DNA of 64,000 nucleotides from Hornefia butyriciproducens (GTDB lineage: Bacteria > Bacillota > Clostridia > Peptostreptococcales > Anaerovoracaceae): positions 1 to 64,000 of the forward strand of contig NZ_VUMZ01000009.1 in the NCBI RefSeq assembly GCF_009695915.1, written 5' to 3'. Under the pieces are notes generated by a model. The model searched no databases and was not told the origin of the DNA. It worked only from the letters and a program-made list of their open reading frames with translations. Below, piece after piece: positions 4,782 through 63,684 of this stretch. A program made the position numbers and the translations under genes. Every line of letters begins with the position of its first letter. Positions within the stretch are counted from its first letter, which is position 1.

Positions 4782-7700
4782 TTGATGATGAAAACGGTAC
4801 AGGCCGGCGCAGAGTTGGATCGGATGCAGAAGGAAAATGAAGAGGAATATTTTCAGGAACTTGAGGAAAGCGGCGATCTGAAATACAGCGAGAGCCAGCT
4901 GGGGCTGGACGGCTATCGCTACTTTCATCCGGAAACTATTTGCGGCGAAGCGAAGATCAGTCCGTCTGCGAAGAGCAAGGCTGAGCGCTTCGTAGAAAAA
5001 TATGATCTGCGGAAACATTTCCGTGTAAACACGGGCTTCCTGAACAACCCGATTTTTGGAGAAATGCAGGGGCAGATCGAGGTTCCTCACCGGGAGGGGT
5101 TTCCGGATGTCAGATTGATATTTAACCGGGATCATCTGCATTATGCTCACTGTGGAGATTTGAGCTGCAGATGTTACGGAGACCGGGATATCAAAAAGCA
5201 CACGACGCTTTGTGCGCATGAAGCTGCGGCGGTGCTTCTGCTGGAGGAGTTTCTGACGACATACGATATCGGCGACGCAACAGATTCGACGGGAATGCGT
5301 TTTTTGAGGGGAGAGCATATGGAGGAGACCTTTTCCGAGAACGACGTGCCGGATGGACAGGAACCGTGCAGAATCATCCCGCAGCTTTCTATATCTGACG
5401 GAAGGCTCACTGTATCCTTTCGGTACGGGCCGGTCTCAGGCAGTAAACGCCCGTATAAGATCAAGAGTGTACCGGAATTTGTGGACAAAACAAAGAAGCG
5501 GGAACCGATGCCCTTCGGGAAAAAATGGACGCCTGTTCTGACTGAGGAACGTCTGGAGGACAACTCACGCAGGATGTATGATCTGATGCGCAGAATCCTG
5601 GATGAAGAACGGCTTCATGCAGAGAATTTCATAAACCGGAGCAGTTTATACAGTTACTGGGGTACTTCCCATTTTGAAATGACATTCCGGGATGAGCTTC
5701 CGCTGTATGGGCGCTGGCTCGACGAATTTTTCAGTATCGTGGCTGAAAATGCCGGGCCGCTTGATTATCTGGAAACCGATCATTATGATTATTATAAAGA
5801 GAAGAAGAAAGGCAAACTTACGATTTCTCCGGAGGCACATCGGCCGTCGTTTCTGATTACGGCATATCACAGCGAGGAGGGGGAATTTCTGGGAGTCCGG
5901 CTTACCGGAGGCATGGGACAATGCTTTTATGGGGAGCGGAGGGCTTACTCTTTTGGAAATAACGAGCTTGCGCCTTTGAATATTCGATTGGCGAAGTTGA
6001 TGGAGCCTGTGGAGCAGGCAGCAGGGCTGGAAGATATCGTAATGGAAATCGGCCGCAGAGAACTGCCGGAATTTTACCACAAGGTTGTGCCTCAGCTGAG
6101 AGAAATGACAGAGCTTTCCGAGCCGGATGATGAGGAAATACAGAGATACCTGCCGCCCGAAGCGAAGATATTTTATTATCTGGATGCAGAGGAGGATCAG
6201 GTGTTCGGCCGCGGGGCTGCTTTGTACAACACAAGGAGGCATAGCCTGTCGGAACCGCTGAATAACAGACCCCTTGAGCCTTATCGTGATCTGGATGCGG
6301 AAATCAGAGCGCGTGATGCGTTGGAAGCCTATTTCCCATACTATGATGAGGAGCGGGATCTGTTTTATAACGACCGGGAGGACGGGATCTGTCAGTTCCT
6401 GCAGGACGGCCTCGACCGGTTGTTCACCATCGGCGACGTGCGCAGCACTGAGCGTTTCCAGAGCCTCGGCGTAAAGCGTACCATTCCGCTCAATATCGGT
6501 GTCTCCATGGAGAACAATCTGCTGGATCTGAAGGTGACGAGCGATGAATATTCGGAGGAGGAGCTTCTAGATATTCTTCAGGCCTACCGGGAGAAAAAGA
6601 AATTTTTCCGCCTGAAGAACGGAAATTTCCTGCTACTTGCTGAACAGGAAAATAATGCGGTGGCGGAGCTCAGCATGATGCTGGATACGATGCAGGTGAG
6701 TCTGAAGGACTTCGTCCGCGGGAAAATGCAGATCCCTGCGTACCGTGCTTTGTATCTTGACCGGATGATGCAGAGTATGGAGAATGTATATGCCGACCGG
6801 GACCGGCACTTCCGTTCGCTGGTCCGGGATTTCCGAACGGTGGAGGAATCGGACTATGAGGTGCCCGAGGCGCTCCGGGGAGTGCTGCGCCCTTATCAGA
6901 CAGTGGGGTATCAGTGGCTCCGCATGCTGGATCATTGCGGATTTGGCGGAATTCTGGCTGACGATATGGGTCTGGGGAAAACGCTGCAGATCATTACGCT
7001 GCTCGCGTCTTTGCAGGGGGACGGGGTGTCGATGATTGTGACTCCCGCATCTCTGGTTTACAACTGGCGCGAGGAGTTCCGGCGGTTCGCACCGGAGCTG
7101 AAGGTTCTCACGGTTACAGGAACGGCGGGAACGCGCCGTGATGTGATTGAGGCGGTGAACAAAGAAAACCGGGATGTGGATGTTCTGATCACCTCGTATG
7201 ATCTTCTGAAAAGAGACATCGATGCTTACGAGGACGCTGAATTTCGCTTTGTTGTCCTCGATGAGGCACAATATATTAAAAACGCCAGAACATCGGCGGC
7301 TCGGTCGGTGAAACTTCTGCGGGGGCAGACCAGGTTCGCCCTGACAGGCACGCCTATCGAGAACAGGCTCAGCGATCTGTGGAGCATTTTTGATTTCCTG
7401 ATGCCGGGTTTATTGTTCGATTACGAGACTTTCCGGCGGGAGATCGAGACTCCGGTCGTCAGAGGCGGGGATGAGGCGAAGGCGGAGCAGCTGAAAAGAA
7501 TGGTAACGCCCTTTGTTCTACGCCGGCTGAAGCAGGACGTTCTGAAGGAACTTCCGGAAAAACTGGAGGAGATCCAGTACACCTCTATGGAAAGCCGCCA
7601 GCAGCAGCTGTATGACGCGCAGGTGCTGCATATCCGGAATCTTCTCGCGGGGGCGGACTACCAGAAGGACCGGTTCCGGATTCTGGCAGAGCTCACACGG

Positions 7701-8264
7701 TTGCGGCAGATATGCTGCGACCCCGCCCTTTGCTTTGAAAATTACCGGAAAGGCTCCGCCAAGCGTCAGCGCTGCATAGAGCTGATCCGGAGCGCGATGG
7801 AGGGCGGGCATAAAATCCTGCTCTTCTCACAGTTTACCTCCATGCTGGAACTTCTCGAGGGAGATCTGCGCGGTGAGGGAATCGCATATTACAAAATCAC
7901 GGGGGCTACGGCGAAGGAAAAACGGATACGGATGGTGAACGCGTTCAACGGAGATGATACACCGGTCTTCCTGATTTCGCTGAAAGCCGGCGGCACAGGT
8001 CTGAATCTGGTCGGGGCGGATATCGTGATCCACTATGATCCCTGGTGGAATTTCGCCGCACAGAACCAGGCGACGGATCGCGCACACCGGATCGGGCAGA
8101 AAAATATCGTCAGCGTCTATAAACTGATTCTCAAGGATACGATTGAGGAACGGATTATCGAGATGCAGGACAGTAAGCAGAAACTGTCGGAAGACATCCT
8201 CGGGGCGGAGGATATTTCCAGCAGCGCCATCGACCGAGACGAGCTGCTGCAGCTTCTGGGGTAG
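4782..8264 (+). CDS. SWIM-domain SNF2 family helicase/ATPase
   Basis: A 1160-residue Swi2/Snf2-type DNA translocase. Residues about 120-150 hold a SWIM-like zinc site with the CRC...LCAHEAA pattern. The middle third matches the SNF2-associated region common in Bacillota. The ATPase core has Walker A ADDMGLGKTLQ (around residue 730), the DEAQ box (around 826), TGTPIENRL, and motif VI DRAHRIGQ (around 1101). Such enzymes use ATP to move along duplex DNA and remodel protein-DNA complexes; in bacteria they are linked to repair or transcription (RapA-like), and some to defence islands. The TTG at 4782 has better spacing from the GGGGG site at 4769 than the ATGs at 4785 and 4788; any of the three is possible. 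Confidence 0.93.
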   Translation: MMMKTVQAGAELDRMQKENEEEYFQELEESGDLKYSESQLGLDGYRYFHPETICGEAKISPSAKSKAERFVEKYDLRKHFRVNTGFLNNPIFGEMQGQIEVPHREGFPDVRLIFNRDHLHYAHCGDLSCRCYGDRDIKKHTTLCAHEAAAVLLLEEFLTTYDIGDATDSTGMRFLRGEHMEETFSENDVPDGQEPCRIIPQLSISDGRLTVSFRYGPVSGSKRPYKIKSVPEFVDKTKKREPMPFGKKWTPVLTEERLEDNSRRMYDLMRRILDEERLHAENFINRSSLYSYWGTSHFEMTFRDELPLYGRWLDEFFSIVAENAGPLDYLETDHYDYYKEKKKGKLTISPEAHRPSFLITAYHSEEGEFLGVRLTGGMGQCFYGERRAYSFGNNELAPLNIRLAKLMEPVEQAAGLEDIVMEIGRRELPEFYHKVVPQLREMTELSEPDDEEIQRYLPPEAKIFYYLDAEEDQVFGRGAALYNTRRHSLSEPLNNRPLEPYRDLDAEIRARDALEAYFPYYDEERDLFYNDREDGICQFLQDGLDRLFTIGDVRSTERFQSLGVKRTIPLNIGVSMENNLLDLKVTSDEYSEEELLDILQAYREKKKFFRLKNGNFLLLAEQENNAVAELSMMLDTMQVSLKDFVRGKMQIPAYRALYLDRMMQSMENVYADRDRHFRSLVRDFRTVEESDYEVPEALRGVLRPYQTVGYQWLRMLDHCGFGGILADDMGLGKTLQIITLLASLQGDGVSMIVTPASLVYNWREEFRRFAPELKVLTVTGTAGTRRDVIEAVNKENRDVDVLITSYDLLKRDIDAYEDAEFRFVVLDEAQYIKNARTSAARSVKLLRGQTRFALTGTPIENRLSDLWSIFDFLMPGLLFDYETFRREIETPVVRGGDEAKAEQLKRMVTPFVLRRLKQDVLKELPEKLEEIQYTSMESRQQQLYDAQVLHIRNLLAGADYQKDRFRILAELTRLRQICCDPALCFENYRKGSAKRQRCIELIRSAMEGGHKILLFSQFTSMLELLEGDLRGEGIAYYKITGATAKEKRIRMVNAFNGDDTPVFLISLKAGGTGLNLVGADIVIHYDPWWNFAAQNQATDRAHRIGQKNIVSVYKLILKDTIEERIIEMQDSKQKLSEDILGAEDISSSAIDRDELLQLLG

Positions 8265-8368
8265 TCCGCACCGCCGGGCGGCAGCGGTGTGCAGGATGAT
8301 TCATGCTGCCGGCCGCCGCCCGGGAGGATAATCCGTACCGTTGTCCGGCTGCGGAGCGGTCGGAAGCC

Positions 8369-9058
8369 TTACGCCATCGCCTGAATGTCATCCGCGGTGA
8401 GATCCCGGTAGTCGTTGATGCGGTGCGCCTCATTCGGCCGCAGATCCTTGGGATCATACAAAAGAGCATGCATGCCCGCGCTCCGTGCGCCCTTGATATC
8501 AAATTCATAGTTGTCACCGATGAACAGAATCTCATCCGGCTCCGCCTTTGCTTTCCCTATACAGCACTGGAAAAAGGCGGGATCCGGTTTGTCGATGCCG
8601 ATCTCCTCGCTGGTGACGATAAAATCAAAGTATTCTCCAAGCTTCAGCTGATCCAGCTTCTGATACTGAATCAGTGCGGTCATGTTGGTGCCCACGCCCA
8701 GCCGGATGCCGCTGTCCCGCAGCATCGCCAGACATTCCCGGATGCCCGGCTCGCGGATGGCGGTGTCCATCAGCGTTTTCCAGTAGAGATTGCTCATGGT
8801 CAGCGCGTGAGGAAACACCGGAAGGTCCCGCTCCTCCAGGAATCGCTGGAACCGGATGATCCGGTTGTGACTCGCCGCGATGGGGCCCATTTCGTCAAAC
8901 TGCTGCTTCATGATTTTGTCGATGCCCTCGGTGGTCTCCCGGGTCGTCAGCCCGAACTCGCGCTCGCAATAGGCGCAGATCGCGTACATGGCGATGCGGT
9001 GACTGTCCTTAAAGTCATAGAGGGTATCGTCCAGGTCAAATATTACGGTCTTTATCAT
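8369..9058 (-). CDS. HAD superfamily hydrolase (YjjG-like)
   Basis: A 229-residue soluble phosphatase of the haloacid dehalogenase superfamily. Motif I is DLDDTLYDF near residue 8 (nucleophile and acid/base aspartates), motif II is GVGTNMT, motif III includes the lysine of DKPDPAFF, and motif IV is GDNYEFDI. The cap is helical, inserted after motif I, as in YjjG-type nucleotidases or other small-molecule phosphatases; the substrate cannot be told from sequence. The gene converges on the SNF2 helicase gene, with about 100 bp of GC-rich sequence between them. No operon partner. Confidence 0.88.
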   Translation of the reverse strand: MIKTVIFDLDDTLYDFKDSHRIAMYAICAYCEREFGLTTRETTEGIDKIMKQQFDEMGPIAASHNRIIRFQRFLEERDLPVFPHALTMSNLYWKTLMDTAIREPGIRECLAMLRDSGIRLGVGTNMTALIQYQKLDQLKLGEYFDFIVTSEEIGIDKPDPAFFQCCIGKAKAEPDEILFIGDNYEFDIKGARSAGMHALLYDPKDLRPNEAHRINDYRDLTADDIQAMA

Positions 9059-9329
9059 ATTCAGTCTCGCTTTCTTATCGTTCTTGTTCCTGCAGTAAAA
9101 TCGAAATCATATCGGTCGTTTCATACCGGACTTTAATTGTATCACAAAGCCATCGCGGCTGCTTTCATTTCTTATGATGCTTGTGTGAATTTTTTCGTGC
9201 GTCTTTGAACTGAGGACAAAACTATCGCTGAATTATACGTATATGTTAGTTTCTCAGAGAAAGGGGCAAATATATGGTACACAGACTTGAAATTCAGAAA
9301 CAGAAATGAAATACAGAAGGAGAGTAGTG

Positions 9330-10181
9330 ATGAAGAGAACAATCAGAAAGGCTGTAACAGGTTTTCGCACTGTGGACGGTGCAGGCGTAAATCTGGTACG
9401 CGTACTAGGCCGGGATAATGTGGAGGAGTTTGACCCTATTTTGATGCTGGATTCCTTCGACAGCACCGACCCCGCAGACTATACCGCGGGATTTCCCATG
9501 CATCCTCATCGTGGTATCGAGACGGTGAGCTACCTGTACCGTGGCAGGATGGTGCACAGAGACACGCTGGGAAATGAAGATCAGATCTCTGACGGCGAGG
9601 TTCAGTGGATGAATTCCGGATCAGGAATCCTTCATGAGGAACAGGTGCCGGCAGCTGAGCGTCTGCTTGGCGTTCAGCTCTGGCTGAATCTTCCGGAAGA
9701 GGATAAGATGAGCGTTCCGACTTATCGTGCGATAAGGAAAGATGAAATCAGGGAGATTCCTTTTGAGGGAGGGTTCCTCCGCCTGCTTGCCGGCGCTTAC
9801 GGAGCGTATCAGGGACATCGCGGGGATCATCTTCCGCTGGACTACTATGACGTACACCTGGACGAAGACGCGGAGCTTGTGATTCCCACAGAGGAGGATG
9901 AATCCGTAATGGTATTCACCCTTCTGGGAGACGCGCTCGTTGCAGATGAGCCGGTCAGAGAGAAGACTGCAGTGAAGTTGACTGAGGGCGACAGTCTGTC
10001 CCTGCGGGGGGCAGCCGGCGGTTCACAGATTCTGGTGATGAAATCCAGAGCGCTCCATGAACCGGTGGCCTGGGCGGGATCCATTGTCATGAATTCCCGA
10101 CAGGAGCTCAGCGAAGCCTTCCTCGAACTGGAAGAAGGAACTTTTATCAGAGAACGCCCGGACTTCAACACCGGGCGTTGA
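9330..10181 (+). CDS. Pirin family protein
   Basis: A 283-residue bicupin of the pirin family. The N-terminal cupin has the metal-binding motif HPHRGIET (His58 and His60) and downstream SGSGILHEE; the C-terminal half begins around residue 170. Pirins bind iron; some have quercetinase activity and others act as redox-linked cofactors, so no function is assigned. I place the start at ATG 9330, 24 nt after the first in-frame ATG, because AAGGAGAG lies just upstream. The gene is alone and closed by a terminator. A GC-rich hairpin overlaps its last codons (CGCCCGG and CCGGGCG near 10156-10178). Confidence 0.9.
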   Translation: MKRTIRKAVTGFRTVDGAGVNLVRVLGRDNVEEFDPILMLDSFDSTDPADYTAGFPMHPHRGIETVSYLYRGRMVHRDTLGNEDQISDGEVQWMNSGSGILHEEQVPAAERLLGVQLWLNLPEEDKMSVPTYRAIRKDEIREIPFEGGFLRLLAGAYGAYQGHRGDHLPLDYYDVHLDEDAELVIPTEEDESVMVFTLLGDALVADEPVREKTAVKLTEGDSLSLRGAAGGSQILVMKSRALHEPVAWAGSIVMNSRQELSEAFLELEEGTFIRERPDFNTGR

Positions 10182-10202
10182 CCGGATCCGAAGGGCTGAG
10201 AG

Positions 10203-10233
10203 AAGTGTCTGCCAACACGGCGGGCACTTTTTT
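10203..10233 (+). terminator. Intrinsic terminator after the pirin gene
   Basis: AAGTGTCTGCC and GGCGGGCACTT form an 11-bp stem (two G-U pairs) over an AACAC loop, and the stem runs into six T. Confidence 0.85.
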
Positions 10234-10337
10234 GCTGTCTGTATACCTGAACTTTTTCGTGCATAAACAAATAATTCATCGGGCACATGCGAACCATTTT
10301 CTGGTAATAATCGGAAGCATCAGGTACATTCCGGCAA

Positions 10338-10366
10338 TTGTGCTGCCAGTATATCGATAATATAAT
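10338..10366 (+). promoter_or_regulatory. Promoter of the small anchored-protein gene
   Basis: TTGTGC at 10338-10343 and TATAAT at 10361-10366 are 17 bp apart. The start codon lies about 195 bp downstream, giving a long leader that contains the hairpin at 10444-10477. The surrounding 380-bp gap holds nothing else I can support. Confidence 0.65.
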
Positions 10367-10443
10367 TTTATTAAAGATGAAAGAATTTTTTGATGATTCA
10401 AGTAGCGACGGCTCGCCGAGAAATGACAGTGCATTATATATGG

Positions 10444-10477
10444 CTGGTACAGATCATGCATTAATGTATTGTACCAG
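10444..10477 (+). promoter_or_regulatory. Perfect 8-bp inverted repeat in a leader
   Basis: CTGGTACA at 10444-10451 is the exact reverse complement of TGTACCAG at 10470-10477, with an 18-nt loop. It is not followed by a T-run, so it is more likely an operator or a leader RNA hairpin than a terminator. Confidence 0.5.
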
Positions 10478-10561
10478 AGAACGCCGGGAATGCAGTGCTG
10501 ATATATCGCGGCAGGATAAATGAAGGGTGGACCGGCAGCGAAATGGCAGGAGGTGTGAAGA

Positions 10562-10981
10562 ATGAGTCATGAAGATGAATTTATAAAATTTCAGGAAGAA
10601 AGCCTGAGGCAGACGGAAGTGCTGAAGGTGATTTTCTCGGTTATTATAATCGTGTGTCTGATTGCCGGGGGACTGTATATAAAAAAGCGTGACGGCGATA
10701 ACGTTATCATACGGGTTCCTGTCTCCGCTTCTTCGGGAGAACAGTGGCAGTGTGAGGCAGAAAACCGGGACGTGCTGGATATCAAAGAGGATCGCGTAGA
10801 AGGAAACAAATATTGCGTGTATCTCACGCCGAAAACGGATGGGAATGCGAAGCTTGTATTTCTTAAGACGGTAAAGGACGGGTCGAAGCAGATCGAGAAA
10901 AGGGTCTATTATTACAGAGTCGACGATTCCGGGAATCTGATTTTCCGCAAAATGGTTAGGAACGAATGCAAGGATGCATAA
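10562..10981 (+). CDS. Small single-pass membrane protein, extracellular beta-rich domain
   Basis: A 139-residue protein I do not recognise by name. The first 20 residues are charged, residues about 22-41 (VIFSVIIIVCLIAGGLYI) form one transmembrane segment without a signal-peptidase site, and about 95 residues should lie outside the cell. That part has strand-like pieces (NVIIRVPVSASSGEQW, NKYCVYLTPKTDGNAKLVFL) faintly like chagasin-type (I42) protease inhibitors, but the diagnostic loops are not clear, so I do not assign that function. The ribosome binding site AGGAGGTG is strong. The gene stands alone with its own promoter. Confidence 0.7.
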   Translation: MSHEDEFIKFQEESLRQTEVLKVIFSVIIIVCLIAGGLYIKKRDGDNVIIRVPVSASSGEQWQCEAENRDVLDIKEDRVEGNKYCVYLTPKTDGNAKLVFLKTVKDGSKQIEKRVYYYRVDDSGNLIFRKMVRNECKDA

Positions 10982-11278
10982 CGTCCCCTGTAGCCGTGCA
11001 AAAGTGCATGAAATTTCAGTCATTTGTAATGCGGGAAATGCTGCGCAGCCGGGTCGGACTATGGTTTTGTCGGAGAAAACCCTGAAAAAATCAGTATGGA
11101 GAATTGTCTGACAAATGAAAGCCGGATGGCACGTAAGTTGCAATAACGGTAATTGTCAATTATAGCAGAGCTTATCAATGGTAAGGCGACATATTCTTAA
11201 TTAGCAGTGAGAATATGAAGCAGGCGGATGTATATCCGGCGAGGCAGTTTCAGTGAGCAGAAAGAAAAGGAGTTAGTA

Positions 11279-11686
11279 ATGAAGAAGAAAGTTTTAATTG
11301 TTGCGCTGAGCGCAGTGATGGCAATTGGAATGAGTGTCGGTCTGACCGGCTGCGGCGGCAGTTCTTCGTCAGGTGGAAGCGGGAAAACCGTGACTCTGCA
11401 TTTTGCGTCTTCCCAGGGGACAACTCATGTCTGGTATGCGTTCATGTATGAGCCGGAGAAAAAGCGCGGGCAGTATATGCTGAATCTGGCGGAACAGTAC
11501 AACGCGGATGCAATCGTTGTGATGATGATGAAATTCTGCGATCCGGAGCAGTATGATTATCCGATCTACAAGGCTGAGCTGGAGGCCGCCGGGATTCCGT
11601 TCCTGTACATGGAGGTGGATCAGCAGACCACTGGATTTGAACAGCTGCGGACGCGGATTCAGAGCTTCTGTGAAATGCTGATGTAG
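11279..11686 (+). CDS. Chimera: lipoprotein/solute-binding N-terminus fused to the C-terminal end of a 2-hydroxyacyl-CoA dehydratase subunit
   Basis: A 135-residue open frame that joins two unrelated proteins. Residues 1-25 are a lipoprotein signal peptide with lipobox LTGC (Cys25) and a Ser/Gly linker. Residues 36-54 (KTVTLHFASSQGTTHVWYA) look like the first strand of a TRAP-type (DctP) solute-binding protein. From about residue 56 the sequence is the C-terminal part of an HgdB/BcrB-type dehydratase D-subunit: NADAIVVMMMKFCDPEQYDY with the cluster-binding Cys87, then a strand-helix end (EVDQQ, RTRIQSFCEML). ATG 11279 has AAGGAG upstream. The dehydratase activator follows 22 nt later, which suits the right half but not the left. 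The simplest reading is a deletion that removed the rest of the TRAP genes and most of the dehydratase. An exported dehydratase tail should not function. Confidence 0.75.
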   Translation: MKKKVLIVALSAVMAIGMSVGLTGCGGSSSSGGSGKTVTLHFASSQGTTHVWYAFMYEPEKKRGQYMLNLAEQYNADAIVVMMMKFCDPEQYDYPIYKAELEAAGIPFLYMEVDQQTTGFEQLRTRIQSFCEMLM

Positions 11687-11708
11687 TTGTAGAGCGAGGA
11701 GTAAAAGA

Positions 11709-12482
11709 ATGTTTCTAGGCGTTGACATAGGGTCTTCATCGTCCAAAGTTGCGATTCTGGATGATGACAAAAAATTGAGAGCAATTCAGATCATCAATCT
11801 CGGAACCGGAACCAATGCGCCGGAGGAAGCCCGCCGCTGCGCATTGGAGGAGGCCGGAATTACAGAAGCGGAAATCGAAGCCGCAGTAGTTACAGGCTAT
11901 GGTCGGATCAACTATAAAAACGCTGACAGACAGATCACGGAAATCAGCTGTCATGCGAAGGGTGTCACGTATCTTGCACCGGATGCCAGAACGATTGTAG
12001 ACATCGGAGGGCAGGACGCCAAGGTCATCAAACTGGGCGAAGACGGTAAGGTTCGGAACTTTGTGATGAACGAAAAATGTGCGGCAGGTACCGGACGTTT
12101 TCTGGAAGTGATGGCCCGGGTACTGGGATGCGGGCTTGGGGAGTTATCCGCTCTTGCGGAAAAGTCCACCAAAGAGGTCGCAATCAGCAGTGTATGCACC
12201 GTATTTGCAGAAAGCGAAGTGATTTCCAGGCTGGCGTCGGGAGAAACGGCTGCGGATGTGGCGAGAGGAGCACATGTGGCGATCTCAAAGCGCGTGGCCG
12301 GATTGTGCAACCGGATCCAGTATGAGCCTGAGATTGTAATGACCGGCGGGGTCGCACTGAACAGCAACGTCGTAAATGCTCTTTCCATAGAGCTCGGGTA
12401 CCCTGTGTATGTGGTGCCTCACTGCCAGGCGGCCGGAGCAATCGGCGCAGCATTGTTTGCTTATGAATTGAAGAGAAAGTAG
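11709..12482 (+). CDS. hgdC: 2-hydroxyacyl-CoA dehydratase activator (HgdC-type ATPase)
   Basis: A 257-residue ASKHA-fold ATPase of the BcrAD/BadFG/HgdC family. These homodimers hold one [4Fe-4S] cluster between subunits and use ATP to push one electron into a 2-hydroxyacyl-CoA dehydratase. The phosphate-1 motif GVDIGSSSSK is at the N-terminus and the second one is DIGGQDAK; the cluster cysteines are Cys124 (NEKCAAGTG) and Cys163 (SSVCTVFAES); MTGGVALN is the adenosine motif. The start is ATG 11709. It lies between the truncated dehydratase remnant and abfD, which itself needs no activator. Its proper partner therefore appears lost from this locus or encoded elsewhere. Confidence 0.93.
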   Translation: MFLGVDIGSSSSKVAILDDDKKLRAIQIINLGTGTNAPEEARRCALEEAGITEAEIEAAVVTGYGRINYKNADRQITEISCHAKGVTYLAPDARTIVDIGGQDAKVIKLGEDGKVRNFVMNEKCAAGTGRFLEVMARVLGCGLGELSALAEKSTKEVAISSVCTVFAESEVISRLASGETAADVARGAHVAISKRVAGLCNRIQYEPEIVMTGGVALNSNVVNALSIELGYPVYVVPHCQAAGAIGAALFAYELKRK

Positions 12483-12492
12483 AGGTGTGAGA

Positions 12493-13971
12493 ATGCCATT
12501 AATGACAGGAGAACAATATATTGAAAGTCTGCGCAGGCTGAAGACCAGGGTGTACATGTTCGGCGAGCAGGTGGAGAACTGGGTGGATCATCCGATTATC
12601 CGCCCGTCCATCAACAGCGTTGCGATGACCTACGATCTGGCGCAGGACCCGGAGTATGCGGATCTGATGACCGCGAAATCCTCCCTGACCGGCAAGACGA
12701 TCAACCGGTTCACCCATCTGCACCAGAGCACGGACGATCTGATCCGCAAGGTGAAGATGCAGAGGCTTCTGGGACAAAAGACGGGTGCATGTTTTCAGCG
12801 CTGTGTGGGGATGGACGCGTTTAACGCGGTGTTCTCCACGACCTATGAGCTGGACGAGGCGAAGGGAACAAAATATCACGAGAACTTTGTGAAGTTCCTG
12901 GAAATGATCCAGGACGAGGATCTGGTGGTGGACGGCGCGATGACGGATCCCAAAGGCGACCGGGGCAAAGCGCCCCACGCGCAGCCGGACAAAGATCTGT
13001 TTCTGCGGATCGTGGAGCGGCGGCCGGACGGAATCGTGGTGCGGGGTGCCAAGGCACATCAGACCGGTGCGGTCAATTCCCACTGGCACCTGATCATGCC
13101 CACCATCGCCATGCGGGAGGCGGATGCGGATTACGCGGTTTCCTTTGCCTGCCCCAGTGATGCGGAAGGGCTGTTCATGGTATACGGCCGTCAGTCCTGC
13201 GATACCCGGAAACTGGAGGATCCCTGCTCCGTCGATGTAGGAAACAACAGGTTTGGCGGGCAGGAGGCGCTGGTTGTCTTCGACGATGTGTTCATTCCCA
13301 ATGAATATGTGTTCATGGCCGGAGAATATGAGTTTGCGGGCATGATGGTGGAGCGGTTTGCCGGATATCACCGTCAGAGCTACGGCGGCTGCAAGGTGGG
13401 CGTCGGAGACGTGGTCATCGGTGCGGCGGCGCTGGCAGCGGAATACAACGGAGCGGAGAAGGCTTCTCATATCAAAGACAAGCTTATCGAGATGACACAT
13501 CTGAATGAGACGCTGTTCTGCTGCGGAATCGCCTGCTCGGCTGAAGGACATCCCACCAAAGCTGGGAACTATCAGATCGATCTGCTGCTGGCAAATGTCT
13601 GCAAGCAGAATGTGACACGTTTTCCGTATGAAATCGTCCGGCTGGCGGAGGACATTGCCGGCGGGCTGATGGTGACGATGCCGTCCCAGAAGGACTTTGA
13701 ATCGGAGCTGCCTGCGGGAAGAGGAGGAGAATCCGTCGGTGCGATCTGCCGGAAGTACTTTGCGACCCGGGAAGATGTGGATGTGGAGGACCGCCAGAAG
13801 GTGCTCCGGCTGCTGGAGAATCTGTGTCTGGGGACCGCTGCGGTGGGGTACCGGACAGAATCCATGCATGGTGCGGGATCGCCTCAGGCACAGCGCATCA
13901 TGATTTCCAGACAGGGTAATATTCAGGGAAAGAAAGACCTTGCCAGGGCAATTGCCGGAATAGAAAAATGA
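12493..13971 (+). CDS. abfD: 4-hydroxybutyryl-CoA dehydratase / vinylacetyl-CoA isomerase
   Basis: A 492-residue flavoprotein with a [4Fe-4S] cluster that dehydrates 4-hydroxybutyryl-CoA to crotonyl-CoA in 4-aminobutyrate and succinate fermentation. The cluster ligands are plain: Cys100 and Cys104 (KTGACFQRCVG) and the His-x6-Cys pair in GYHRQSYGGCK, the same spacing as in the Clostridium aminobutyricum enzyme (99, 103, 292, 299). Length is normal for the family. I chose ATG 12493, 11 nt after the hgdC-like stop, with AGAGGTG upstream; GTG 12487 is also in frame. It probably shares a message with the activator gene. The next gene, an iron alcohol dehydrogenase, has its own promoter. Confidence 0.95.
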   Translation: MPLMTGEQYIESLRRLKTRVYMFGEQVENWVDHPIIRPSINSVAMTYDLAQDPEYADLMTAKSSLTGKTINRFTHLHQSTDDLIRKVKMQRLLGQKTGACFQRCVGMDAFNAVFSTTYELDEAKGTKYHENFVKFLEMIQDEDLVVDGAMTDPKGDRGKAPHAQPDKDLFLRIVERRPDGIVVRGAKAHQTGAVNSHWHLIMPTIAMREADADYAVSFACPSDAEGLFMVYGRQSCDTRKLEDPCSVDVGNNRFGGQEALVVFDDVFIPNEYVFMAGEYEFAGMMVERFAGYHRQSYGGCKVGVGDVVIGAAALAAEYNGAEKASHIKDKLIEMTHLNETLFCCGIACSAEGHPTKAGNYQIDLLLANVCKQNVTRFPYEIVRLAEDIAGGLMVTMPSQKDFESELPAGRGGESVGAICRKYFATREDVDVEDRQKVLRLLENLCLGTAAVGYRTESMHGAGSPQAQRIMISRQGNIQGKKDLARAIAGIEK

Positions 13972-14004
13972 TGAAAGCGCGGCGCGGAAGCGTCGGAATG
14001 CATG

Positions 14005-14090
14005 AAAAGGGGCTGTCGCACAGTTGATTTAAATATCAGCTGGAGCGACGGCTCCTTCTTTTTGATAATTGTGCGATAGCCTCTTTGTTT
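14005..14090 (+). terminator. Long hairpin terminator after abfD
   Basis: GGGGCTGTCGCACA (14009-14022) pairs with TGTGCGATAGCCTC (14070-14083) with few mismatches, and an inner GGAGC/GCTCC hairpin sits in the loop. A T-rich tail (CTCTTTGTTTT) follows. This could be a terminator or a small mobile hairpin repeat; both ends are nearly symmetric, so it may work in both directions. Confidence 0.65.
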
Positions 14091-14326
14091 TGCCGGGACA
14101 GTCAGGGCAGTGCCATCGTTTTTTCCTCATCGCTAACACACCCTGCTGCGGTTAAAAATCTAACAAAATGAATAATAATTCGTAACAAGCAATACTTCGC
14201 CAATGAATTATCAAACTGTTTGACGCAGATTTAACAAGCGGACGAAGGATAGACGGTTGTTTGTCATTTGACTATCGAAAATGCATAAAAATTCACAAAA
14301 ACACAATTTTTTTTGAGATAAAGTAC
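14091..14326. other. AT-rich gene-free stretch before the alcohol dehydrogenase promoter
   Basis: About 235 bp of AT-rich DNA with no reading frame worth calling and no repeat I can support. It contains several TTAACA/TAACAA runs (ATCTAACAAAATG, TCGTAACAAGC, TTTAACAAGCGG) that could bind a regulator, but they are not regular enough to call an operator. Confidence 0.4.
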
Positions 14327-14354
14327 TTGCATTCTTCTTTTCGGGTGGTATAAT
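14327..14354 (+). promoter_or_regulatory. Promoter of the iron alcohol dehydrogenase gene
   Basis: TTGCAT at 14327-14332 and TATAAT at 14349-14354 are 16 bp apart; the start codon is about 68 bp further on. Confidence 0.75.
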
Positions 14355-14422
14355 GCAGAAAATTCAGGTGCGGTTATGAATAAATATAAAACCGTATCGC
14401 ATAAACGAAGGGAGAATCAGTT

Positions 14423-15586
14423 ATGTCAATGTATTATTATTTACCCGCGCGAAATGTTTTTGGTGAAGGAGCTGTAAAAGAATGCGGACGTCTGCTGGCC
14501 ACCATGCATGCGAAAAAAGCGATGATCGTCACTGACGCATTTCTCGCCACGCAGCCGATGGCCGCAGATATACAGGGATATCTGAAAGATGCGGGAATCG
14601 ATTCGGTGATTTTCGGCGGAGCAGAGCCGAACCCGAAGGATACGAATGTTGAAGCGGGACTGAAGGTTTTCAACAAAGAGCAGTGTGATGCCATCGTCAC
14701 ACTCGGCGGCGGTTCTTCTCATGACTGCGGCAAGGGAATCGGACTTGTGGCCGCCAATGGCGGTACAATTCATGATTATGAAGGAGTTGATAAGGCCGCC
14801 ATCAGCCCGGTACCGATCCTTGCGATTAATACAACGGCAGGAACCGCATCGGAAATTACGCGGTTCTGCATTATTACCGATACCAGGAGAAAGGTGAAGA
14901 TGGCCATTCTGGACTGGAGAGTCACACCGGATATTTCCATTAATGATCCGGAGCTTATGATTGGCATGCCGCCATCGCTGACCGCTTCAACTGGAATGGA
15001 TGCGCTTACTCACGCGATTGAGGCCTATGTTTCCACGATGGCAACTCCGATGACGGACGCTACTGCGCTTCTGGCGATTACAATGATCACACAGTATCTT
15101 CCGAAAGCAGTTGCAAACGGTGAGTATATGAAGGCGAGAGACCGAATGGCCTACGCGCAGTATCTGGCTGGCGCTGCGTTTAATAACGCTTCTCTCGGAT
15201 ATGTCCATGCGATGGCTCACCAGCTGGGAGGTTTTTATAATCTGCCTCATGGCGTCTGTAACGCAATTCTGCTGCCGTATGTGGAGGAATTCAATATTAT
15301 CGGAAACCTGAACCGTTTCAGAGATATAGCGAGAGCGATGGGCGAGAAGGTTGACGGGTTGTCCACGGACGATGCGGCAGTGAAGGCGATTCGGGCAATC
15401 CGGCGTCTGAGCGGTCAGGTCGGGATTCCGGCGAACCTGAAGGAACTGGGCGTCCGGCGAGAGGATTTTGATATCCTGGCCGAGAACGCCATGAAGGATG
15501 CCTGCGCAGCGACGAACCCGCGGAAGGCGACAAAGGAACAGATTATCGATATCTTTGAGAAGGCGTATGAGGGCGCGGCGCAGTAG
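14423..15586 (+). CDS. Iron-containing alcohol dehydrogenase (group III; 4-hydroxybutyrate or alcohol dehydrogenase)
   Basis: A 387-residue NAD(P)-dependent dehydrogenase of the iron-dependent group III family. The nucleotide-binding loop is GGGSSHDCGKGIG and is followed by NTTAGTASE. The metal ligands are Asp193, His197, His262 and His276 (MDALTHAIEAY and HAMAHQLGGFYNLPHG). Members reduce aldehydes such as succinic semialdehyde, butanal or 3-hydroxypropanal. Because abfD is just upstream, 4-hydroxybutyrate dehydrogenase is the attractive reading, but sequence alone cannot separate it from butanol or 1,3-propanediol dehydrogenases. It has its own promoter and ribosome binding site (GAAGGGAG), so it can be expressed apart from abfD. 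Confidence 0.9.
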   Translation: MSMYYYLPARNVFGEGAVKECGRLLATMHAKKAMIVTDAFLATQPMAADIQGYLKDAGIDSVIFGGAEPNPKDTNVEAGLKVFNKEQCDAIVTLGGGSSHDCGKGIGLVAANGGTIHDYEGVDKAAISPVPILAINTTAGTASEITRFCIITDTRRKVKMAILDWRVTPDISINDPELMIGMPPSLTASTGMDALTHAIEAYVSTMATPMTDATALLAITMITQYLPKAVANGEYMKARDRMAYAQYLAGAAFNNASLGYVHAMAHQLGGFYNLPHGVCNAILLPYVEEFNIIGNLNRFRDIARAMGEKVDGLSTDDAAVKAIRAIRRLSGQVGIPANLKELGVRREDFDILAENAMKDACAATNPRKATKEQIIDIFEKAYEGAAQ

Positions 15587-15721
15587 CGCCTTCGCTGCCC
15601 TCTGTTTCATTCATCGGTCTGCCTTCACCGGCAGCTCCGATGGATTATTTCTCCCGCCGCTGGTGGGAGTATGTATTATATCTCTTATTTTTATAATATA
15701 ATGTTTGCTCGTTAAACCCCG

Positions 15722-16340: not shown

Positions 16341-16453
16341 TGCGCCGTGTGCTGCGGTGCGGATGATGCGTTGTGCGTCCCCGTATGTGCGGCTGCTTTT
16401 TTGTATATCACAAAGTATACCACAAAAAAATTATTTTGGTTGATTGTAAAATG

Positions 16454-17214
<761 letters not shown>

Positions 17215-17329
17215 GTTGTTGCAATTAAGCAAAAAAATAATGTTGAGTGTGAAAGCCTTTATGGGCGGAAATTTTCAATACGTATATCGCCATTTTGACC
17301 GATGTATACACTTATTGCAGGCAGTTTTA

Positions 17330-62496: not shown

Positions 62497-63684
62497 ATGA
62501 AAGATGTAGTAATCGTAGGCGCTGCGAGAACAGCGATCGGAACCTTTGGCGGAACTCTGAAGGACGTTCCCGCAAGAACTCTTGGTGCCGTTGTAATTAA
62601 AGAAGCAATTAAAAGAGCAGGCATCGAGGCGGATCAGGTGGAAGAAGTCATCATGGGCGACGTGCTTCAGGGCGGCCTCGGCCAGAACGTTGCGAGACAG
62701 ATGTCGTTGGATGCGGGAGTTCCCAAGGAAGTACCTGCGATGACAATCAATAAGGTCTGCGGATCCGGACTGAGAGCAGTTGAACTGGCGGCTCAGATCA
62801 TCAAGGCCGGCGATGCTGACATCATCGTTGCCGGCGGAGCGGAGAATATGTCCGCGACTGCTTATGCACTTCCGAAGGCAAGATGGGGAGCCAGAATGTT
62901 CGACGGAAAGATGGTCGACATGATGGTCAACGACGGTCTGTGGGATGCGTTCAACAACTATCACATGGGTATGACCGCCGAGAACGTTGCGGAGCAGTGG
63001 GGACTGACCAGAGAAGAGCTGGACGAGTTCTCACTGAAATCCCAGCAGAAGGCAGAGGCCGCGATTAAGGGCGGCAAGTTCAAGGACGAGATCGTTCCGG
63101 TTGAGGTTCCGCAGAGAAAGGGCGATCCGATCGTCTTCGACACTGACGAGCATCCCAAGTTCGGTTCCACAATTGAGAAGATGGCCAAACTGAAGCCGGC
63201 GTTTAAGAAGGACGGCGGAATCGTTACAGCGGCCAACGCTTCCGGAATCAACGATTCCGGCGCTGCAGTCGTCGTTATGTCCGCGGACAAAGCCAAGGAG
63301 CTGGGCCTGAAGCCGCTGGTCAAGATCGTAAGCTATGCTTCCGCAGGCGTCGATCCGAAGATCATGGGTGTCGGACCGGTTCCGGCTTCCAAGAAGGCTC
63401 TGGAGAAGGCAGGCCTGTCCATCGCGGATATGGATCTGTACGAGGCAAACGAAGCGTTTGCGGCGCAGTCTGTAGCGGTTGGCAAGGAACTGGGATTCGA
63501 TCCTGAGAAACTGAATGTAAACGGCGGCGCAATCGCGCTCGGCCACCCGATCGGAGCTTCCGGCTGCAGAATTCTGATCACTCTGATCTATGAGATGCTG
63601 AGAAGAGACGATGCGAACAAAGGACTGGCGACGCTCTGCATCGGCGGCGGCATGGGAACCGCAGTCGTTGTCGAGAAGTGCTGA
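62497..63684 (+). CDS. thlA: Acetyl-CoA acetyltransferase (biosynthetic thiolase)
   Basis: A 395-residue thiolase that condenses two acetyl-CoA to acetoacetyl-CoA, the entry to butyrate formation. The catalytic Cys88 is in [12 protein letters not shown]; the other active-site motifs are [18 protein letters not shown] and CIGGGMG. Length is normal. AAGGAGG precedes ATG 62497. Codon choice differs from neighbours (many AGA, few CGG; AAG and GTT frequent), as expected for a strongly expressed gene. It stands alone, closed by a terminator; the rest of a butyrate operon is not here. Confidence 0.95.

Follow-up and report, generated by a model that had tools for sequence, protein, structure and literature searches.

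How does a gene come to begin as the lipoprotein of a TRAP-type uptake system and to end as a subunit of an acyl-CoA dehydratase? A frame of this kind lies at 11279-11686 of the window (here, the whole 64,000-nucleotide stretch that was analysed, from a contig of the gut-type anaerobe Hornefia butyriciproducens). A preliminary description, made from the letters of the window, had explained it as the product of a deletion between two operons that happened to keep the frame. In the open-access literature searched we found no publication on such a dctP/hgdB fusion; in the accessible portion of PMC6615313 the dehydratase occurs in the reference list only. We followed the two halves of the frame, its neighbors and its presumed lost parts through the genome itself and through its relatives.

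The chimeric frame and its neighborhood

The features on which the argument draws are given below; G006 and G007 are genomes of the same genus, and G007 is the closest relative found.

9306..10181, + strand: pirin gene, in the left flank common with G007 (G007 match, which ends at 10231)
10232..11438, + strand: smp and the dctP start, a stretch to which G007 has nothing corresponding at this place (G007 comparison)
10562..10981, + strand: smp, encoding a small membrane protein and in relatives a neighbor of dctP (match to the smp of G006 with 27% identity, E 3e-9)
11104..11114, + strand: palindrome TTGTCTGACAA, 12 bases before the sigma-54 site (pattern search)
11127..11142, + strand: sigma-54 type promoter TGGCACGTAAGTTGCA (strict-pattern match)
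11267..11272, + strand: AAGGAG, ribosome-binding-like site of the chimera (sequence)
11279..11686, + strand: chimeric frame, DctP-type lipoprotein start and HadC/HgdB-type tail (translation, profile matches)
11279..11437, + strand: dctP part, codons 1-53, with signal peptide, lipobox, Ser/Gly linker and first strand (identity to G006; alignment to three full DctP proteins)
11342..11353, + strand: presumed lipobox LTGC, ending at Cys25 (translation)
11438..11683, + strand: hgdB/hadC tail, codons 54-135, codon 54 being the ambiguous junction codon (profiles, G007 match)
11709..12482, + strand: acyl-CoA dehydratase activator of the hgdC type, now with no subunit pair at the locus (BcrAD_BadFG, E 9e-66; TIGR00241, E 8.6e-79)
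12493..13971, + strand: HpaB-fold gene, named abfD here (PF11794, PF03241)
14038..14055, + strand: terminator-like hairpin 3' of abfD (five such sites in the region on both strands, against 3.4 expected)
14423..15586, + strand: iron-dependent alcohol dehydrogenase (Fe-ADH), in the right flank common with G007 (Pfam, G007 match)

The frame runs from the ATG at 11279 to the stop at 11684-11686 and encodes 135 residues. Residues 2-54 match the start of a G006 frame with 62% identity (E 1.3e-12), and the full protein of that frame is DctP (E 2e-68). The LTGC ending at Cys25 we take, by eye, to be the lipobox of the chimera; it aligns by eye with three full DctP proteins, and through this alignment the chimera has the signal peptide that characterizes DctP. 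The Pfam DctP profile (PF03480, 286 positions) found no match in the chimera, so that the DctP half rests on the G006 alignment together with the alignment to the three full proteins. At the other end, residues 54-134 correspond to columns 263-342 of the 342 of Pfam HGD-D (PF06050; E 3.7e-25), and residues 55-134 to columns 293-372 of the 372 of NCBIfam HadC (NF052456; E 9.2e-31). The HadC score, 107 bits against a whole-protein cut-off of 700, is far under that cut-off because the tail alone is present. The lipoprotein signal with a first solute-binding strand, the C-terminal 80 or so residues of an HgdB-type subunit, and the activator gene directly behind them are thus all as the preliminary description had read them.

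The alignments place the joint between codons 53 and 55, and codon 54 can be assigned to neither parent. Of 20000 simulated random dctP/hgdB joints, 6509 could be read without interruption as far as the hgdB stop, so the open frame by itself is unremarkable. By eye, the dctP genes of G006 and of G067 (another genus of the same family) have few bases in common, in register, with three hgdB genes at the break; both dctP genes are proxies for the true parent, which may differ from them.

No alpha subunit gene stands at the locus, though the activator follows the chimera. The name abfD for the HpaB-fold gene reflects its context and our presumption that it is 4-hydroxybutyryl-CoA dehydratase-like; no named NCBIfam model applied to it, HpaB models only being hit, all under cut-off. 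The smp product has 139 amino acids and no Pfam match; its family travels with dctP, and it is possibly an accessory part of this TRAP system.

Comparison with the nearest relative

The window matches G007 at 6060-10231 (94.2% identity) and again at 11439-15652 (91.8%). Between these matches G007 has 8.4 kb (L059, 4457-12865) and the window 1207 bases. The G007 segment contains frames for EBP (a sigma-54 activator), thl (thiolase), CoA transferase, hbd (3-hydroxybutyryl-CoA dehydrogenase), crt (crotonase), hgdA and the greater part of hgdB (frame names by eye, those of hgdA and hgdB being backed by NCBIfam profiles), and the order between the common flanks reads EBP-thl-CoAT-hbd-crt-hgdA-hgdB-hgdC-abfD. 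The right match starts at the fusion point, identifying the window tail as the orthologous hgdB tail. G007 has no smp-dctP at the corresponding place; either a second loss in G007 or a gain in the window lineage is therefore needed.

Another difference from G007 lies about 5 kb from the joint. Window 16445-17291 has no counterpart there, and the window lineage thus probably took up an insertion element. Remains of a transposase-like gene occupy two frames at 16543-17150; the first piece has an HTH_38 domain and is presumably IS30-like, and the second has no Pfam match.

Gene orders in other relatives

The smp gene directly precedes dctP in G006, where dctQ and dctM follow. In G067 the order is hgdB tail-abfD-smp-dctP-dctQ-dctM-EBP, with the hgdB tail at the contig end; the G067 EBP is 70% identical to that of G007, and behind it stands an unrelated ATP-binding gene rather than thl or the enzyme genes. 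The dctPQM genes lie upstream of hgdABC, on the same strand, in L070 (with EBP between) and L116 (without EBP). TRAP genes lie downstream of hgdABC in G006, G007b and L072, and the hgd neighborhood stretches examined at L062, L063, L064, L069+L110, L090, L111-L114 and L117 contain no TRAP genes. The complete ancestral order was found in no single genome. The preliminary description had pointed to dctP-dctQ-dctM and hgdA-hgdB between the ends of the chimera in close relatives: the hgd pair does lie between the flanks in G007, and the hgdB end of the joint and both flanks are collinear with that genome, but for the placement of the dctP end there are G067, L070 and L116 only.

The smp gene, before dctP in G006 and G067, comes after dctM in G007b. 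It had at least three matches among 197 family genomes (the window's own, G067 and G085), in a search that was incomplete: G006 and G007 were not among its matches, despite matching in the genus search. Around the G085 match (L115) none of the reference genes was found.

Two further observations concern these neighborhoods. In G067 (L109, 9711-11505) some 170 bases separate the hgdB tail from the abfD that follows it, and hgdC is not among them, an order unlike that of the window and G007. The neighborhoods at 6513-19140 of L061 (G006) and 2818-15321 of L060 (G007) combine a dehydratase pair, activator, CoA transferase and abfD-like gene with an IlvD-type dehydratase, a galactarate-dehydratase-like gene, TRAP genes and sigma-54 sites, a combination suggestive of a fermentation pathway that leads from a sugar acid or a hydroxy acid to crotonyl-CoA.

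Promoter and transcription unit

The strict sigma-54 pattern TGGCAC-N5-TTGCW has one match in the 64 kb, against 0.05 expected, and five of 100 shuffles contained one; a looser pattern has four matches in the window against 4.2 expected. Since the looser pattern is at chance level, the strength of the site lies in its strict match (12 of 12 specified bases) and in its place 136 bases before the dctP start. Sigma-54-like sites with 11 of the 12 specified bases precede dctP in G006 and G007b, and by eye a similar site precedes it in G067; before the dctP of L070 none was scored. In the stretch from EBP to the enzyme genes such sites have 11/12 bases in G007 and 10/12 in G006, and the G006 stretch before thl reaches 5/12. 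All these sites in relatives are best scores in chosen stretches, taken without a chance control. Their occurrence before both dctP and the enzyme genes indicates that the two parent genes of the chimera probably each belonged to a sigma-54 unit, and the promoter at 11127-11142 was probably inherited from dctP.

From the promoter to the end of abfD the + strand has no terminator-like site; the first is the hairpin at 14038-14055, the likely end of the new transcription unit. The palindrome TTGTCTGACAA may be an activator-binding site, a candidate function suggested by its place; its pattern occurs once in the window and is absent from L059, L060 and L061. The dedicated sigma-54 activator is missing at the locus.

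The presumed lost genes and the fusion elsewhere

If genes were lost at this locus, do they survive elsewhere in the genome? The assembly is a 28-contig draft, 98.46% complete. A profile search for DctP (PF03480) found no match in the whole assembly. DctM gave one partial match, half of the model in a 237-codon frame on contig C12, and no reference protein matched any listed frame of that stretch (L086). Besides the window's own, HGD-D has five matches, on contig C1, one of them over columns 2-342. These C1 proteins are about 30% identical to the chimera tail, and the larger of them either show 21% identity to G007 hgdA or have an activator part of their own; the assembly contains no close HGD-D pair and no second copy of the tail. 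EBP has 13 matches in the own genome, the best-scoring of which is 39% identical over most of its length, with up to 53% over parts only; none is a close full-length EBP. The G007 8.4 kb, compared with the window and about 20 own-genome loci, retrieved paralogues only, the best a thiolase-like stretch at 77% (L092). Within the window itself, 63182-63665 is 67% identical to part of the thiolase gene of the G007 locus and is probably another thiolase gene. The earlier statement that the activator was left without its usual partner is accordingly right for the locus and when close relatives of that partner are sought, but it does not extend to the genome, given the other HGD-D proteins on C1.

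We found the two halves in one frame in no genome but the window's own among 61 relatives (E <=0.01), 17 genus genomes (E <=1e-4) and 393 order genomes (E <=1e-12, with at most 10 candidates scored per genome and the 393 drawn from a larger group); these sets overlap, and each counts the window's own genome. Conservation of the same short fusion in relatives, named beforehand as the finding that would speak against a deletion, was therefore looked for and not found. G006 and G007 have both halves, in separate genes. The order-search matches in G044, G123, G171, G116 and G248 start before residue 50, in frames of 377-454 codons, which is the length of a full subunit. The G118 match starts at base 3 of its contig. 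Two short matches were traced further: a 48-residue piece in G067 is cut by the contig end, and a 209-codon frame in G197 is part of a gene that a run of N interrupts.

Constraint and age

The tail differs from its G007 counterpart by 21 synonymous and two nonsynonymous substitutions, one of the latter in the junction codon (dS 0.65, dN 0.010, dN/dS 0.016). The same comparison gives dS 0.59 and dN 0.030 for hgdC, and dS 0.31 and dN 0.002 for Fe-ADH. With G007b and G006 as outgroups, amino-acid changes in hgdC were assigned to the window branch in three cases, to the G007 branch in five, and were ambiguous in nine; the corresponding counts are 0, 1 and 4 for abfD, and 0, 0 and 1 for the tail. 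Relaxed selection on the activator, expected of an old deletion, is not seen in the hgdC branch counts, and those of abfD give no sign of it either.

Such strong constraint on the tail means that the deletion is recent, that the tail is still used, or that the joint is not real in the organism; a recent deletion is the simplest of these readings. In a rough calculation that assumes equal branch lengths and a Poisson model, a tail unselected for 10% of the window branch would have about six nonsynonymous changes (probability of one or fewer, 0.013), and for 7% of the branch the probability of one or fewer is 0.06. The deletion is thus probably recent and, if the tail is dead, by this rough calculation no older than about 7% of the branch.

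Origin of the chimera

We consider it probable that the chimera is the scar of a collinear chromosomal deletion between dctP and hgdB, as the preliminary description had proposed; the gene orders of G007, G067, L070 and L116 and the lack of DctP in the assembly support it. When the smp-dctPQM-EBP order of G067 is chained with the EBP-thl...abfD order of G007, the result is an ancestor a single collinear loss away from the window, which would have read pirin-smp-dctP-dctQ-dctM-EBP-thl-CoA transferase-hbd-crt-hgdA-hgdB-hgdC-abfD-Fe-ADH. The loss would amount to about 11.5 kb (0.9 kb of dctP, 2.5 kb to the EBP start, and from there a further 8.1 kb until the break is reached), an estimate for which G067 and G007 are proxies, the full ancestral order and length being themselves reconstructed. 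One break would have fallen at dctP codon 53-55 and the other about 82 codons before the hgdB end. Since the proxies have no long common sequence at the break, the joining was probably non-homologous, and the frame would have been retained by a one-in-three chance. The sigma-54 promoter would now read the chimera, hgdC and abfD. The matching activator gene would have gone with the deleted stretch; with EBP gone, expression of this unit is uncertain, and it may be weak or silent. The deletion is favored by the position of smp before dctP, an order common to G006 and G067, and by the sigma-54 site in front of dctP, which has counterparts in G006, G007b and G067. Counting against the order that it supposes are the G067 TRAP genes, which lie behind an hgdB tail and abfD and whose EBP does not precede thl, and the TRAP genes downstream of hgdABC in G006, G007b and L072.

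A possible objection is that the joint exists only in the assembly, an assembler or binning step having joined the start of one gene to the end of the other, with intact dctP and hgdB present in the organism. The preliminary description had raised this, and the genome is indeed a 28-contig draft; the full constraint apparent on the tail, hgdC and abfD is also what an intact hgdB would lead one to expect. But to the left and to the right of the replaced stretch the window is syntenic with G007, in the same orientation, and the skipped genes are not elsewhere in the assembly, which has no DctP, no close HGD-D and no close full-length EBP. The few bases that the proxy dctP and hgdB genes have in common at the break make a repeat-driven misjoin unlikely, although the true parent dctP may differ from the proxies. 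On balance we regard an artefact as unlikely. A real joint could also have been made by recombination, a foreign or translocated smp-dctP segment replacing everything from EBP to hgdB. G007 has no smp-dctP at this locus, the dctP start is only 62% identical to its best same-genus match, and smp and the spacers around it have a G+C of 0.42-0.45 against 0.533 for the window; yet the dctP part itself is at 0.525, and in G067 the TRAP genes lie directly before a related EBP, making an import unneeded. Such a replacement appears very improbable to us.

More improbable again is a joint of rearrangement, in which an ancestor hgdB-hgdC-abfD-smp-dctP underwent a tandem duplication or similar event that joined the dctP start to a second hgdB tail, with later losses. 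The hgdB and abfD genes do lie upstream of smp-dctP in G006 and G067, and a duplication joint would read smp-dctP::hgdB-...-abfD just as the window does; against this, more steps are required, pirin stands before smp and Fe-ADH after abfD as around the G007 locus, and the assembly has no second tail copy. That the fusion is functional, as a retained lipoprotein or as a leader whose translation keeps that of hgdC and abfD going, we hold to be scarcely credible. Its start site, lipobox and frame are intact, the two nonsynonymous against 21 synonymous differences show tail constraint, and no + strand terminator-like site intervenes before the end of abfD. A recent deletion predicts the same constraint, however; the fusion is present in only one of the genomes searched, its tail is half a domain with one invariant cysteine and no N-terminal region, and no activity is evident for a piece of dehydratase outside the membrane. 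A deletion might instead have been favored rather than accidental, rewiring the activator and the abfD-like gene to the dctP sigma-54 promoter, with the open frame kept because both translation and transcription into hgdC and abfD need it; to this we give only a slight chance, between those of the replacement and of the rearrangement. All in all, the frame has the look of a recent accident of evolution and not of a newly evolved protein.

Product of the chimera

In a model predicted from six aligned rows (mean pLDDT 64), which served only to show how strands and helices succeed one another, the tail forms two strands and three helices, with block pLDDT 68-86. The related BzdN has a four-strand C-terminal domain of 149 residues (228-376), according to PMC11971306; compared with it, the modeled tail would be about half of a C-terminal domain. 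Cys87, in KFCDPE, is invariant in 6/6 rows and is the sole invariant cysteine left in the tail. The same paper gives Cys95, Cys128 and Cys380 as the cluster ligands of BzdO, a related subunit. By analogy with BzdO, iron-sulfur ligation would draw on N- and C-terminal cysteines, and the chimera has Cys87 only, the N-terminal region being gone. If it is made at all, the product would be a lipoprotein about 110 residues long, with neither function: anchored outside the membrane, and lacking the rest of the subunit, its partner and the transporter, it would have no plausible activity.

Read in this way, the locus offers a clear example of how a chimeric gene can originate: what lay between a gene for uptake and one for an enzyme is deleted, a promoter is handed over, and an activator stays behind without its enzyme. 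It also calls for caution from annotators. The frame is not part of a transporter, nor is it a dehydratase, and the remaining activator gene is no ground for crediting the species with this dehydratase route.

Comparison with known systems

Full-length D-components of PF06050 have about 340-375 residues, and the chimera covers only the end columns of that profile. HadC is the beta subunit of (R)-2-hydroxyisocaproyl-CoA dehydratase (PDB 3o3m_B); the chimera matches the last 80 of its 372 profile positions, but lacks the first three quarters and has no alpha subunit gene at its locus. The full G007 hgdB-type protein matches 3o3m_B with E 2.8e-93 and is itself under the HadC cut-off (379 against 700 bits), so that the HadC substrate is not transferable. 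With DctP (PF03480, TIGR00787) the chimera shares the signal peptide, lipobox and first strand, as in the full-length G006 DctP, but this part ends after about 53 residues, and neither dctQ nor dctM comes behind it.

Fusion genes that arise when a deletion joins two neighboring genes form a general class, characterized by collinear loss, an in-frame joint and retention of the upstream promoter. Set beside these, the chimera would be an ordinary deletion chimera, with nothing special about it save that both its parents apparently had sigma-54-type promoters.
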